Part shown: one piece after another, positions 221 through 7,497 of the stretch
Numbering within the stretch: the first letter of the stretch is position 1
Layout of the letters: each line of letters opens with the position of its first letter
Virus record (IMG/VR): IMGVR_UViG_3300010354_000092
Span: 1-61,543 of that record
Source: a virus
Reading direction: 5' to 3' (one strand)
DNA length: 61,543 nucleotides
Translations under genes and position numbers: made by a program
The notes under the pieces: model-generated
Databases searched by the model: none
The model's input: only the letters and a program-made list of their open reading frames with translations
Told to the model about the DNA's origin: nothing

Positions 221-1225
221 ATGAAGTTAGATGATATCTTAACGGAATCTCAAATAGATGAATTAGGCATCGCAAAAAAGATTGCAGGCGGAGTTAGAGG
301 TGCCGTCACAGGATTTAAATCAAATAGAGATAAGCGTGCCGGATTACAACATAGTAATAAGATTGTAGATAATCTACGAAGAGAATTTATGAAGCAGGTA
401 GGTGGCGGAACTGAAGCCACTGTGCAAAATCTATTATCATTTTTACAAAATCAAGGTTTAGATGTTAGCTCAGTAAACACAGACCAACTTCCTCAAGAGC
501 CTGCACCTCAAAATCAACCTAAACAACGAATTGAACCTACTTTAGATTTAGAGCCAACTCCCGAAAAACCTAAAACTACTGCACCTACACCAAGTTCAAC
601 TGGTGGAACTGTAACTCCTACGGCTACTGGATTACAACACAAAGCTAGTCTCGACAATCCAAACCAACCAAAGACTACAGTCCCTCAAGGGCCCGGAGCA
701 GGAGCGTTTAGTTCTATGGCATCGCAGTTAGGTGCACCAAGCGGAAACCAACCACTAACTCCTACTAAACCGAAAAGAACAGGGGGTAAAGTTCCTGGAG
801 TAGTTAGCCAAACGCCAAACGCTCAACGTAAACGTGCTGCCAGGATAGCTAAAAGCGGGGGTGTGGTTAAAGAAGAAACCCAGCTAAATGCTGTTAACAT
901 TGATAAAATTATCAGAGATGTTGTACAGAAAAACTATAGCAAAATTCGTCAAGCACAGGCTGGTACACTGCCAGCACAGACTGTAGATTTAACGCAATTT
1001 AGTCAACCTGCTCAGCCTAAAGCTGAAGTACCTAGTAATAATGCATTTGCTAATCCAGAAGAACTTGAAAAATCTTGGGACGAGTATGTCAAAGCAGGTG
1101 GAACTATTTCTGATCAGCACAAAAAGCTATTTGCTAAGTTAGCAGGAAGTGCAACAGCTCCTGCTCCGGCGGCGCCTACTACAGAATCTGAATTTTACAG
1201 TAAATTCTTAGGACAGCGTCTTTAA
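221..1225 (+). CDS. Proline/threonine-rich virion-associated protein, unknown function
   Basis: This 334-aa protein is not recognised. The N-terminal 70 residues are charged and helical (start MKLDDILTES). Residues 90-200 are a low-complexity Pro/Thr/Gln/Gly linker, and the end has two short conserved-looking blocks around residues 225-255 and 275-305. A late promoter box lies 25 nt upstream, so it is probably made with the structural proteins. Several L-x-E tripeptides, the T4 prohead protease signature, occur in the linker, so an internal head protein is possible but unproven. Its stop overlaps that of the convergent gp51 frame by 3 bp. Confidence 0.6.
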   Translation: MKLDDILTESQIDELGIAKKIAGGVRGAVTGFKSNRDKRAGLQHSNKIVDNLRREFMKQVGGGTEATVQNLLSFLQNQGLDVSSVNTDQLPQEPAPQNQPKQRIEPTLDLEPTPEKPKTTAPTPSSTGGTVTPTATGLQHKASLDNPNQPKTTVPQGPGAGAFSSMASQLGAPSGNQPLTPTKPKRTGGKVPGVVSQTPNAQRKRAARIAKSGGVVKEETQLNAVNIDKIIRDVVQKNYSKIRQAQAGTLPAQTVDLTQFSQPAQPKAEVPSNNAFANPEELEKSWDEYVKAGGTISDQHKKLFAKLAGSATAPAPAAPTTESEFYSKFLGQRL

Positions 1226-1461
1226 AAGAATGGTAATTTAGTTTTATTAGTTAATTCTAAATTACTTTCAATAAGTTTGGCTATGATTTCTCTATCTTGA
1301 TAATCTGTATTATAAGCTTCTTCAAGTGTTAATCCGCCTCTCATAAACCAGCATAGTCTTATTAGTTCTTCTTTAACGGCTTTTATTTCTTTTTCTAGCT
1401 TTTCAGAAAGCTGGAGTATTTCTTCGATGCTAAGAGATAAAAGCCTTATGCGAAAAAATTT
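1222..1461 (-). CDS. 51: gp51-like baseplate hub assembly factor, in -1 frame after gp26
   Basis: Translating the minus strand gives about 69-79 residues containing SIEEILQLSEKLEKEIKAV, then WFMRGGLTLEEAY and a final TKLPFF. This matches my memory of gp51, the baseplate hub assembly catalyst of T4-like phages. No ATG, GTG or TTG exists between the last upstream in-frame stop and the conserved start of homology. The frame is exactly -1 relative to gp26 and overlaps its end. It is therefore probably reached by ribosomal frameshifting at the slippery heptamer 1455-1461, giving a gp26-gp51 fusion of about 362 residues. A rare AUA or AUC start is the alternative. The left coordinate includes the stop; the right one is the slip site rather than a start codon. 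Confidence 0.7.
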   Translation of the reverse strand, partial: KFFRIRLLSLSIEEILQLSEKLEKEIKAVKEELIRLCWFMRGGLTLEEAYNTDYQDREIIAKLIESNLELTNKTKLPFF

Positions 1462-2309
1462 GCAGGATCAAAAGTTAGAGGAATCTCGATTTCTTCTGAT
1501 ACACCATTATCTATCATTTCTTGACTAGGTCTTACCTTAATGGGTTTAAGGCCGTTTTGTTCTCGCATCAATTCAAGGTGTTGTTTAATGCTATCAAATA
1601 TATGAGCATCTGAATTTTCTAAAAATTCTTTAATATGATCTGGATCTTCTGTGGTTCCTGCTATGCTTTCAATTCTATACACACTGCTATTAATAACATC
1701 GACTGTGATAGATGTGAGCTTTTTAAAGCTTTCTCTAAATGTTTCTATTTTTTGTTCTTCTGTTAGTTGAGAACTGTTGACTAAACTAAGAATTTTTTGA
1801 GTTTCAAAATTTTGAATACTAGTCTGACTGGCTACGGCATAGTTAACTGGCTTAATAAACAGGACCATTTCTTTGCCAATTTCTAATCTTTCTTGCCACG
1901 AAATTTGATTTTGCAGTCTATCTAACACTTCTCTCAGATTAACAGTATAGGTCATATCTTCTTCACCTATGTTGATAGTAGTGTCCATATTTTCGCCAAA
2001 TGTTGCTAAACGTATAGCTATTAAAATAACGTCTATGTCTATGTTAGGTATGGCCCATGCATCTATAATATTAGGCATACAACTTTGAATAACGTCCACA
2101 ACTGCTTGTCCGTTGAGCAATGCGTCTGGAGTTTTTAACATAAGTTCATCTTTAGCCGTCATAGAGAATACCGGGTATTCTCCATTCGTCGTTTGATTAA
2201 GACTTCCTTCAGTCCAATATTGCCCGTTACTAGGCAATCTTATGTAGATTTTTGGTTGACGCATTAAGCTAGTCAACGGATTTATTTTCTTTACGGCTGT
2301 AGAATCCAT
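1446..2309 (-). CDS. 26: gp26-like baseplate hub protein (T4_baseplate family)
   Basis: This 287-aa protein contains the family core MTAKDELMLKTPDALLNG followed by a segment (VVDVIQSCMPNI) and IDVILIAIRLATFGE, typical of the T4 gp26/PF12322 baseplate group. gp26 works with gp51 in assembling the central hub. The next gene across the divergent promoters is the tape-measure-like protein, which fits a role as a tape-measure or hub chaperone. It is longer than T4 gp26 (about 208 aa). The ATG at 2309 follows a minus-strand late promoter with a leader of about 35 nt and a weak GGA. The last codons carry the slippery heptamer. Confidence 0.82.
   Translation of the reverse strand: MDSTAVKKINPLTSLMRQPKIYIRLPSNGQYWTEGSLNQTTNGEYPVFSMTAKDELMLKTPDALLNGQAVVDVIQSCMPNIIDAWAIPNIDIDVILIAIRLATFGENMDTTINIGEEDMTYTVNLREVLDRLQNQISWQERLEIGKEMVLFIKPVNYAVASQTSIQNFETQKILSLVNSSQLTEEQKIETFRESFKKLTSITVDVINSSVYRIESIAGTTEDPDHIKEFLENSDAHIFDSIKQHLELMREQNGLKPIKVRPSQEMIDNGVSEEIEIPLTFDPANFFA
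1455..1461 (-). promoter_or_regulatory. Candidate -1 frameshift site A-AAT-TTT
   Basis: Read on the minus strand in the gp26 frame the codons are GCA AAT TTT TTC GCA TAA. A-AAT-TTT fits the X-XXY-YYZ slippery rule. A one-base backward slip continues TTT CGC ATA and enters the gp51 frame, bypassing the gp26 stop at 1446-1448. About 40 nt downstream a small stem (AGCTTT/AAAGCT) is visible; a stronger stimulator was not found. Confidence 0.55.
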
Positions 2310-2383: not shown

Positions 2384-4438
2384 ATGGCCGGAATAGACAC
2401 TGCTGCGATGGAACAAATCCTTGAGCAACTGCTCAAGGAAGCTAGGAGCCAGGGAAGAACTCAATCTACATTCTTATCAGCATTGGCTAAGAAAGCAGGT
2501 ATAGATCCTAAATTAATTGCAGAGCAAGAAAAAAAATTAGCTGCTTTAGGTAATGCCGCAGAAGATACTGCTAAGAAGACTAGTAAACTCGGTGGCGTAG
2601 GAAATATGGTAGGCAGTGTACTTGCTGACTTAGCTAACGGTGTGACAGCTACAGCAGGTAACTTAGTTAATTTTGGTGCTAAAGCATCTTTAGGTAGTGC
2701 AAAGATAGAAGATTTATTTTCTGCTTTTAAAGATCTTCCTATTATTGGAGTAGTAGCTAATTTATTTTCTGCTTTAGCAAAAGTCCAAACTGAAACTTTA
2801 GATCAATTTAGATCATTAACTCAGTCTGGTATTAATTTTGGCACAGGATTAAATGTCCTTCGAGAAACCGCATTACAATCAAAAGTTTCTTTAGATTTTT
2901 TTGTACAAAATTTAAAACAAAGTTCAGATACGTTAGCTATTATTGGTACTACTGCTAATCAAGGTGCTAAAAATCTTAAAAATATTAACTTAGAAATTAC
3001 AAGAAGTGGCGGATTTGGTGAACAATTAAGGAATTTAGGCTACAGTTATGAAGATCTAAACAAACTTACTACAAGCTATGCAAGAACCGTTGGCGGACTT
3101 AATAGACAGCAACAAAATGATTATAAAGGTGTAGCAGAAGCCGCAGTAGCCTACGGTAAAGAATTAGATTTGTTAGCCAGAATTACTGGAAAATCTAGAG
3201 AAGCGCAGCAAAAAGAATTAGAAGAAGCTATGCAAGAATCTAATTTCCAAGCATTCTTGGCAACATTAGATCCCGAACAGGCTAAGAAATTACAGACTCA
3301 GGTTCAAGAAGCTATGGGTGTTGCAGGCAAAGGTGGCGCTGAAATCGTTAAAGCTCAGGCAATGGGAATTGCTGTTCAAGGACAGCAAGGTAAATTATTA
3401 ACTGCATTAGGTGGAGAATTAGCAAGTAAATTAAGAGATCAAACAGACATGGCTATGAACACTGCTGTTTCTGTTGAGCAATTTAAATCTCAAAGTGTAA
3501 GACGTATTGCCGAGTTACAAACTTCTGCCGCAGAAGCGTATCCAAGAATTGCTAAGCCTATGCAAGCTTTAGCTCTTCAAGGAGAAAACGTTGCAGAAAG
3601 TATTGGACCTTTAGCTAAGAATTTTACAGCATTAAAAAATGCAGGAGCAGAGACATTAGATCAAAGAATTCAACAGGTGGCCGCTGAAAAAGCTGCTCAA
3701 GAAAAAGATGCGGCTACTAGAGATGCAAGTTTACAAGCAATGTTGAATGCAGAAGAAAAAATGAAAGCATTTAACGCTGAAATGAGCAAGGTAGTAACAA
3801 CCCTAAGTGAAAAATTATTATTTCCTCTAATGAATAAAATTACTCCAATGTTACCAGAAATAGCTAGACAAATTTCTACATTTATACAAAATCTTTTCAC
3901 TCCGGAAGGACGAGCAAAAATCATTAAAGATATTGTAGATGGCGTAAAAGAAATTATAGCAGGCGTTTACACTCAAATGTCTGCTGGTCCAGATCAACAA
4001 GCACTAGCACAAGATAAAAAAAATTGGGATAGCATGGCATGGTATCAAAAAGCAGAATCTGGGTTAGCTAGAGGTATAGAAGGTGTTGGTCGCTTTTTAG
4101 GTATGGAAACTGTAGCCAATCGAGCAGCCGTAAACAGAATAGAAGCAGAAACAAAGGCATTAAGCGGTAGAGCATTTGGCAGCTACGGAGTGACTGGTAA
4201 ACTGTTTGAAGATTTTGGGAACGGTACAAATGTGACTTTACACGGTCAGGAATCTGTTATGACTCCTAGCCAATTGTCTAGTTTAATGGATGGTTCAGCG
4301 GCAAATAATCTTAAAGGTCTTGTAGAACAATTAAATAGTGTAAACAGTCAAATGTTACAGACAATGAAACAGGTAGCTGAATATACAAAACGCAATGTAG
4401 ATGCGACTAAAGCCCTAAGTGGCGATGCATTTGCATAA
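2384..4438 (+). CDS. Tape-measure-like tail/hub protein (gp29-like position)
   Basis: This 684-aa protein is Ala/Gln-rich and predicted mostly helical. It has a Lys/Ala-rich helical start (residues 1-70), Gly/Val/Leu hydrophobic segments at about 70-150 (including LPIIGVVANLFSALAKV), a long amphipathic helical middle (200-480), and a final region with LHGQESVMTP, a sequence common near the ends of tape-measure proteins. It sits directly beside gp26-gp51, the hub assembly factors, as T4 gp29 does. I infer a tail-length/hub role from composition and neighbourhood rather than a clear match. An internal head protein is the alternative. The start follows CAGGAAAAATACA. Confidence 0.6.
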   Translation: MAGIDTAAMEQILEQLLKEARSQGRTQSTFLSALAKKAGIDPKLIAEQEKKLAALGNAAEDTAKKTSKLGGVGNMVGSVLADLANGVTATAGNLVNFGAKASLGSAKIEDLFSAFKDLPIIGVVANLFSALAKVQTETLDQFRSLTQSGINFGTGLNVLRETALQSKVSLDFFVQNLKQSSDTLAIIGTTANQGAKNLKNINLEITRSGGFGEQLRNLGYSYEDLNKLTTSYARTVGGLNRQQQNDYKGVAEAAVAYGKELDLLARITGKSREAQQKELEEAMQESNFQAFLATLDPEQAKKLQTQVQEAMGVAGKGGAEIVKAQAMGIAVQGQQGKLLTALGGELASKLRDQTDMAMNTAVSVEQFKSQSVRRIAELQTSAAEAYPRIAKPMQALALQGENVAESIGPLAKNFTALKNAGAETLDQRIQQVAAEKAAQEKDAATRDASLQAMLNAEEKMKAFNAEMSKVVTTLSEKLLFPLMNKITPMLPEIARQISTFIQNLFTPEGRAKIIKDIVDGVKEIIAGVYTQMSAGPDQQALAQDKKNWDSMAWYQKAESGLARGIEGVGRFLGMETVANRAAVNRIEAETKALSGRAFGSYGVTGKLFEDFGNGTNVTLHGQESVMTPSQLSSLMDGSAANNLKGLVEQLNSVNSQMLQTMKQVAEYTKRNVDATKALSGDAFA

Positions 4439-6582: not shown

Positions 6583-7497
6583 ATGTCAGAAAAGTTTGAA
6601 AAACTTTTAGATTATCTTGTCAACGAGGAAATGGATAAGGCAAATGAATTATTCCATGAGATCGTTGTTGAGAAGTCTAGAGAAATTTATGAACAGATGA
6701 TTGCTGAGGAAGCAGAAGATGCTGACGAATCAGTAGAAGAAGAAACAGAAGACGCCGACGAGTCTGTAGAAGAAGAAACAGAAGACGCCGACGAGTCCGT
6801 AGAAGAAGCTTATATGGACGACGAACAAGACGAGTCCTATGAAATGGACAACGAAGAAACTACACTTGAAATTGGCGGCGATGCCGGCGATGCATTAGTT
6901 AAAGGTGTAGAAGACAAAGACGCTATGGACATGGACATGGATGGCGGAGAAGGTGGTGATGTTAGTCAAGGAGAAAAACAAATCCTTGATGTAGTATCTC
7001 AACTTCATGCTGAATTTCAAGACCTATTAGCCAAAGTAGATGGCGATATGGACAGTGAAATGCCAGCAGATGACGATGCTGCCGACATGGAATTTGATGA
7101 CGAAGATGACAGCGACAGCGAACCAAAAGATGAAGATCTAATGATGGGAATTGCAGAAGGTCGTAGACTTCGCGAATATTCAGAAAAAGTAAGTGATGGT
7201 CATGGTGCCGAGAAAAAAGGCAAAGCAGAAGAAGGTGACGGTAAAGCAGGACCAGTAAGCTCTGCTAAAGGTCGTCCAGCTTCCGATGCTCGTGCATCTA
7301 ATATTGCTCAAGGCGGAGAAGAAAAAGGTGGTGCAACACCAAAAGCCAAAGGCGAGTTTACCAAGAGTGGCACACATAATGTAAATGGCACCAAACACGG
7401 TGTTAAAACATTAAGTAAAGTTTCTCAAGGTCACGGTGCAGAAAAGAAAGGCGCCGGTGAACAATCAGCTAATACCAAGAGTATAGTTGGTCAATAA
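6583..7497 (+). CDS. Acidic prohead core/scaffold protein (gp67/68-like)
   Basis: This 304-aa protein opens with a helical block (about residues 1-40; KANELFHEIVVEKSREIYE) like the start of T4 prohead core protein gp67, then a very acidic Asp/Glu tract. Residues 45-76 are three tandem copies of EDADESVEEET. Residues 185-304 are Lys/Gly-rich with a duplicated GHGAEKKG motif. Acidic, repetitive and probably disordered, it fits an internal scaffold that is destroyed by the gp21 protease. It lies 11 nt before gp21. It is several times longer than T4 gp67 (80 aa). Ribosome site AAGGAG. Confidence 0.6.
   Translation: MSEKFEKLLDYLVNEEMDKANELFHEIVVEKSREIYEQMIAEEAEDADESVEEETEDADESVEEETEDADESVEEAYMDDEQDESYEMDNEETTLEIGGDAGDALVKGVEDKDAMDMDMDGGEGGDVSQGEKQILDVVSQLHAEFQDLLAKVDGDMDSEMPADDDAADMEFDDEDDSDSEPKDEDLMMGIAEGRRLREYSEKVSDGHGAEKKGKAEEGDGKAGPVSSAKGRPASDARASNIAQGGEEKGGATPKAKGEFTKSGTHNVNGTKHGVKTLSKVSQGHGAEKKGAGEQSANTKSIVGQ
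6715..6810 (+). repeat. Tandem 33-bp coding repeat, about 3 copies
   Basis: Copies begin at 6715, 6748 and 6781 and encode EDADESVEEET, EDADESVEEET and EDADESVEEA. The second and third copies are almost identical at the DNA level, suggesting a recent duplication. Confidence 0.85.

Follow-up and report, generated by a model that had tools for sequence, protein, structure and literature searches.

The gp26 locus and its reading frames

The window, i.e. the whole stretch of DNA analysed here, is a single 61.5-kb virus record from a phage of the T4 superfamily, which carries the genes for the portal protein gp20 (PF07230, E 7e-110), the prohead protease (PF03420, E 4e-26) and the major capsid protein gp23 (PF07068, E 2e-99) further along the plus strand. 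On the minus strand, gp26 (positions 1446-2309) encodes a putative TAC-N-like protein of 287 amino acids that matches the PF12322 T4_baseplate family (E 2.5e-9; 37.6 bits against the cut-off of 24.5) and the baseplate hub family phrog_150 (E 1.3e-11). The top named relatives of this gene come from Sinorhizobium phage Phosso and Agrobacterium phage Atu_ph07, followed by jumbo phages of the Rak2/GAP32/121Q/PA5oct type, and two IMG/VR relatives are carried by contigs of 331 and 355 kb.

The last codons of gp26 are GCA AAT TTT TTC GCA TAA, with the stop codon TAA at 1446-1448. The -1 frame is closed by a stop a few codons upstream of this junction and then remains open for 76 codons (1222-1452, minus strand), up to a stop at 1222-1224; the first ATG, GTG or TTG of this ORF is the ATG that forms codon 37, counted from the slip. 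A preliminary description of the locus had placed gp51 in the -1 frame of gp26, with no start codon at its beginning, and had predicted products of 287 and about 362 amino acids. All three statements agree with the reading frames: translation yields 287 amino acids for gp26 and, with one slip at T_TTT_TTC, 362 amino acids for a predicted TAC-NC-like fusion (1222-2309, minus strand; junction ...PANFFRIRLL...), in which the extension is the C-terminal part. The gp51 label itself applies in part, as the fusion aligns with gp51 but the short ORF is the C-terminal extension only, not the whole of gp51; because this ORF alone has no significant match in Pfam or PHROG, its name is based on the profile alignment of the fusion. 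Across the 65 ORFs of at least 100 amino acids in the window, the junction is the sole in-frame X_XXY_YYZ motif that feeds such a -1 ORF (motif within 45 nt of the stop codon, -1 ORF of at least 40 codons).

The neighbouring gene (2384-4438, plus strand), which adjoins gp26 and is divergent from it, encodes a 684-amino acid protein that is tape-measure-like by position only. The gene at the corresponding place in RaK2 carries an annotation of similarity to a tape measure protein; the 684-amino acid product itself has no sequence match in the phage collection, and no known tape measure was matched. Thus, of the tape-measure-like neighbour that had been described, the gene and its location stand, and the tape measure identity is positional. 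Genes of similar size occupy the same position in the jumbo relatives.

A near-invariant slippery heptamer

The slippery heptamer T_TTT_TTC (1452-1458, minus strand; gp26-frame codons TTT TTC) is found near the end of gp26, in the gp26 frame, in 187 of the 192 surveyed gp26 loci, which include those of jumbo phages, cyanophages, Vibrio phage nt-1 and Aeromonas phage P19. Among the exceptions, XacN1 (further upstream) and Melnitz-2 both carry T_TTT_TTT at the corresponding junction, Rhizobium phage RHph_I1_9 carries T_TTT_TTG, RB43 is of the two-gene type, and Vibrio phage D510 has no such heptamer. In D510 (L188, 2200-2240), gp26 ends with CTT TTC AAG TAA and an overlapping ATG, so the frameshift may have been lost in this lineage.

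In the codon null derived from the same genes of the 68 non-redundant loci (<70% amino acid identity, taken from the heptamer-holding loci), the heptamer is expected with a frequency of about 4% per locus, given two Phe codons: TTC accounts for only 19% of the Phe codons, and a T precedes a Phe codon elsewhere in only 27% of the cases. This value is not an independent-trial probability because the loci are related and many of the cyanophage ones are near-identical. The T run is exactly six nucleotides long in all 68 non-redundant loci, and the codon before TTT TTC can be AAT, GAT, AGT, CAT, ACT, CGT, TAT or TCT, always with a single final T. In Escherichia coli, UUY codons and all-pyrimidine motifs tend toward being shift-prone (Sharma et al. 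2014, PMC4066793).

A second in-frame motif, A_AAT_TTT (1455-1461, minus strand), overlaps T_TTT_TTC in the window, and a slip at either would produce the same 362-amino acid fusion. A_AAT_TTT had initially been taken for the slippery heptamer. It is indeed present and in frame, but conservation does not extend to its first bases; since the codon before TTT TTC varies yet retains its single final T, this motif is incidental, and the conserved site is the overlapping T_TTT_TTC.

A covarying stem downstream of the heptamer

The heptamer is followed by a 6-nt spacer, GCATAA (1446-1451), that contains the gp26 stop codon, and by the 5' arm of a predicted stimulatory stem, GGCUUUUAU (1437-1445), which pairs with the 3' arm AUAAAAGCC (1378-1386) about 60 nt further on (all on the minus strand); the fold z of the stem in the window is -2.45. 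The spacer is supported by the sequence itself and by the enrichment of stem starts, and both arms by pair counts and RNAalifold, along with the slide control for the 5' arm and the fold z for the 3' arm. A strong helix (score of at least 8) starting 4-7 nt past the heptamer is found in 60 of the 77 gap-free loci, compared with a mean of 2.1 and a maximum of 5 loci in synonymous-codon shuffles; the remaining 17 loci have no strong simple stem. Only helices whose 5' arm begins 3-11 nt past the heptamer are enriched, with no enrichment beyond offset 11.

In the 34-locus clade of the window, defined from the tree, the helix comprises 10 bp and is paired in 95.9% of the cells of the structure alignment, the rows of which are the window and IMG/VR sequences only. 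Compensatory changes account for 40 cells altered on both sides, none of 500 shuffles reaches the observed level of pairing, and when the 3' partner is slid, pairing falls to 29-56%. Applied to the 34 relatives, RNAalifold recovered, unprompted, exactly the GGCUUUUAU/AUAAAAGCC helix, with two-sided changes in 5 pairs. The covarying stem probably acts as a frameshift stimulator.

The helix of the window is not a universal structure, given that only 62% of the cells pair over all 77 loci; this is because the sister clades keep the 5' arm and pair it with other 3' arms. Such partner swaps around a fixed 5' arm provide a natural series for the evolution of a stimulator inside a coding frame. An upstream Shine-Dalgarno (SD)-like stimulator was also considered for the clade of the window and rejected, the best anti-SD energy (-2.1 kcal/mol) being no better than the control (-3.0 kcal/mol).

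Selection in the -1 frame and the case for frameshifting

The gp26 stop codon lies 0 to 11 codons past the slip in the 68 non-redundant loci, and the residue at the second codon of the extension varies as well (I, M, L, V, S, T, Q, A or R), so that neither the stop codon nor a start codon is conserved. By comparison, the first codon of the extension encodes Arg in 66 of the 68 loci, and extension residues R1, W35, M37, R38, G39 and N64 are invariant in 58 relatives. Between the window and its relative L011, the first 33 codons of the extension, which precede any start codon in the window, differ with dN of 0.047 and dS of 0.54 (dN/dS about 0.1), and dN is likewise lower than dS in the extension for other close pairs. 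The frame past the slip is under purifying selection at the protein level ahead of any start codon. None of the 77 loci has a stop codon in this frame, whereas the other two frames have 7 to 8 per sequence, although the loci of this set were selected for 76-codon extensions. Early ATG, GTG or TTG codons (among the first codons after the slip), which would also permit reinitiation, are present in 13 of the 63 non-redundant jumbo loci, and in PA5oct there is no such codon in the whole 73-codon extension. The alignment of junctions from relatives, proposed in the preliminary description as a check, turned out in favour of a frameshift, with T_TTT_TTC kept in 187 of the 192 loci and no early start in 50 of the 63 non-redundant jumbo loci.

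Taken together, the conserved heptamer, the conserved -1 frame that lacks a start, the purifying selection and the covarying stem at the canonical spacing support the original proposal that gp26 and gp51 are joined by a -1 frameshift and make it very probable that this is canonical programmed frameshifting yielding the TAC-N and TAC-NC tail assembly chaperones. In particular, the conservation of the heptamer and the frame, against the varying stop and second codon, counts for a frameshift, and the slippage itself would occur at T_TTT_TTC. Under this mechanism, a ribosome translating gp26 would come to have its P and A sites over the TTT TTC of U_UUU_UUC; the majority of the ribosomes would then read one more in-frame codon and stop, releasing the 287-amino acid gp26. 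The stem six bases downstream would pause ribosomes, and a fraction of these would slip back by one base, with both Phe tRNAs re-pairing with UUU, and read 76 more codons to complete the 362-amino acid fusion. By analogy with gpG and gpGT of phage lambda, many short copies and few long copies could coat the tape measure, with the extension recruiting the tail tube protein.

A distinctly improbable alternative is termination-reinitiation, whereby ribosomes restart at a start codon overlapping the gp26 stop and make a separate small gp51. ATGA or TAATG is indeed found at the junction in Phosso, Atu_ph07, 121Q and two contigs (L012 and L015), and the 121Q and Phosso annotations give a separate gp51 from an overlapping start. 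However, the window has no overlapping start, and neither do most of the non-redundant jumbo loci as far as the first post-slip codons are concerned, up to the extreme case of PA5oct. Furthermore, the residue at the start position, variable as described above, follows from the stop codon that is used, and Arg 1, which lies ahead of that position, is invariant in the 58 relatives. An ATG-started gp51 in the absence of the heptamer, which the preliminary description had named as evidence against frameshifting, occurs in Vibrio phage D510 only; the other relatives with an overlapping ATG retain the heptamer.

Even less likely is transcriptional slippage, in which RNA polymerase would slip on the T run and generate mRNAs in both frames. 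The site is a T run, but one of exactly six nucleotides in every non-redundant locus, which is short for polymerase slippage; moreover, the stem is fixed at the 6-nt spacing past a heptamer that is specific to the reading frame, and this dependence fits the ribosome. That gp26 and gp51 are truly a single ORF split by a sequencing error at the T run, a concern raised at the outset, or that gp51 is a decayed gene, can be dismissed almost entirely, because the same two-frame arrangement recurs in independent sequences, including L011 (85% amino acid identity) and, overall, about 190 contigs and named phage genomes, and the extension is under purifying selection.

Cyanophage counterparts and the relation to T4 gp26 and gp51

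In the cyanophages P-SSM2, S-CRM01 and S-RSM4, gp26 has the heptamer of the window, T_TTT_TTC, at its end and is followed by a -1 extension, and the cyanophage fusion profile aligns with the jumbo fusion profile through the junction, with a probability of 98.5%. The cyanophage extension is shorter (60-63 codons against 76 in the window), and the putative stimulators differ from those of the jumbo clade. Unlike the stem of the window, the cyanophage hairpin is local; most members have it, as a short structure 5 nt downstream. Upstream, at a distance of about 9 nt, the majority of the set, including P-SSM2 and S-CRM01, carries an SD-like GGAGGG (best anti-SD energy of -8.0 kcal/mol in the cyanophage-type set against -3.8 for the control). 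The cyanophage loci in question are L025 (P-SSM2; 7170-7250) and L106-L185.

The gp26 and gp51 proteins of T4 both belong to PF12322 and are paralogous to each other (blastp E 3e-6). Direct BLASTP searches of the window proteins against T4 gp26 and gp51 produced nothing significant, so profiles were needed. In comparisons with the cyanophage-type fusion profile, for which E-values were computed for a target set of four sequences, T4 gp26 aligns up to the slip point, which is where the protein stops (...GLKEFFEL), and the alignment of T4 gp51 runs over the slip point into the extension; the match between the jumbo and cyanophage extension profiles alone is weak (17% probability, E 0.0014). Judging from where these alignments end, T4 gp26 is the counterpart of the predicted short product and T4 gp51 that of the predicted long product; by the same token, the short ORF of the window probably matches the C-terminal extension of T4 gp51, the N-terminal part of which is gp26-like.

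The proteins are homologous, but T4 has two paralogous genes, of which gene 26 lacks the heptamer at its end, whereas the window has one gene and a predicted frameshift. This suggests that the two-gene state of T4 is derived, the simplest reading being that the ancestor used frameshifting and that the gene was duplicated afterwards on the T4 branch. It appears reasonably likely that the ancestor of the T4 superfamily (jumbo, cyanophage, nt-1 and P19 types) had a single gp26-gp51 gene with a -1 slip at the near-invariant U_UUU_UUC, that T4 and its nearest kin escaped frameshifting via duplication, with each product fixed separately, and that the 5' arm of the stem stayed fixed while its 3' partner was replaced several times between clades.

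Predicted structures and the proposed chaperone role

The structures of gp26 (AlphaFold model, pLDDT 86) and of the extension (pLDDT 89; helices 9-37, 43-47 and 51-71) were predicted separately. The gp26 model superimposes on the HK97 tail assembly chaperone 2ob9 over 98 of 107 residues (rmsd 4.5, Z 6.4), a middling score that falls short of proving a shared fold; most of its other top structural matches involve a long helix only, and the best PDB match from Foldseek in the test for the TAC fold has an E-value of 0.28. Against viral models, Foldseek matched gp26 to a T4-like baseplate hub assembly protein (E 9e-22), and for the extension there was no match at E <= 0.001, the best being an uncharacterised phage protein (E 6e-3). 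In the papers that cite the 2022 work of Vladimirov and colleagues, the genes meant as the chaperones of T4-like phages are presumably gp26 and gp51. By analogy, gp26 and the fusion are likely to be TAC-N and TAC-NC chaperones, and two of these papers (PMC10885494, PMC12846349) treat the genes so understood as the tail assembly chaperones of T4-like phages.

Known systems and public records

Tail chaperone frameshifting is an already known kind of event. In the G/GT system of lambda, the chaperone ORF adjoins the tape measure gene, and a -1 slip near its end gives an abundant short product and a rare long one (PMC5009743). The present system has the heptamer U_UUU_UUC and a downstream stem, is known from sequence signals, and differs from lambda in the placement of the tape-measure-like gene, which is divergent here and downstream there. 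In Vandenendeviridae and Andersonviridae, the TAC is made with a -1 frameshift at a poly-T motif that is conserved close to where the TAC-N gene ends (PMC12846349); that motif is reported as GTTTTT, compared with T_TTT_TTC here, and the likeness is one of motif and place.

In a 2016 review, tail chaperone frameshifting is described as conserved among long-tailed phages 'except T4' (PMC5009743). In the present survey, frameshift signals recur at one near-invariant site in a large part of the T4 superfamily. Some of the finding for T4-like phages may already have been published, since PMC12846349 names Vladimirov, Gautam and Davidson (2022) as the source for poly-T slip signals in the 'TAC-N genes of T4-like phages'. 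A literature search, beyond the reach of which lay the full text of that 2022 paper, found no paper on a gp26/gp51 frameshift in the jumbo/T4-like group. The additions made here are the covarying stem with its swapped partners and the survey of jumbo phages.

In the public records of jumbo phages and cyanophages, the predicted second chaperone is lacking, is given a wrong start or figures as a gene of its own. The ORF downstream of gp26 is missing or mis-started in the records of L002, L003, L005, L006, L007 and L010; it is absent from those of PA5oct and RaK2 and begun at internal codons in those of Atu_ph07, GAP32, CBB and Munch. In the cyanophages, gp26 and gp51 are annotated as two separate genes.
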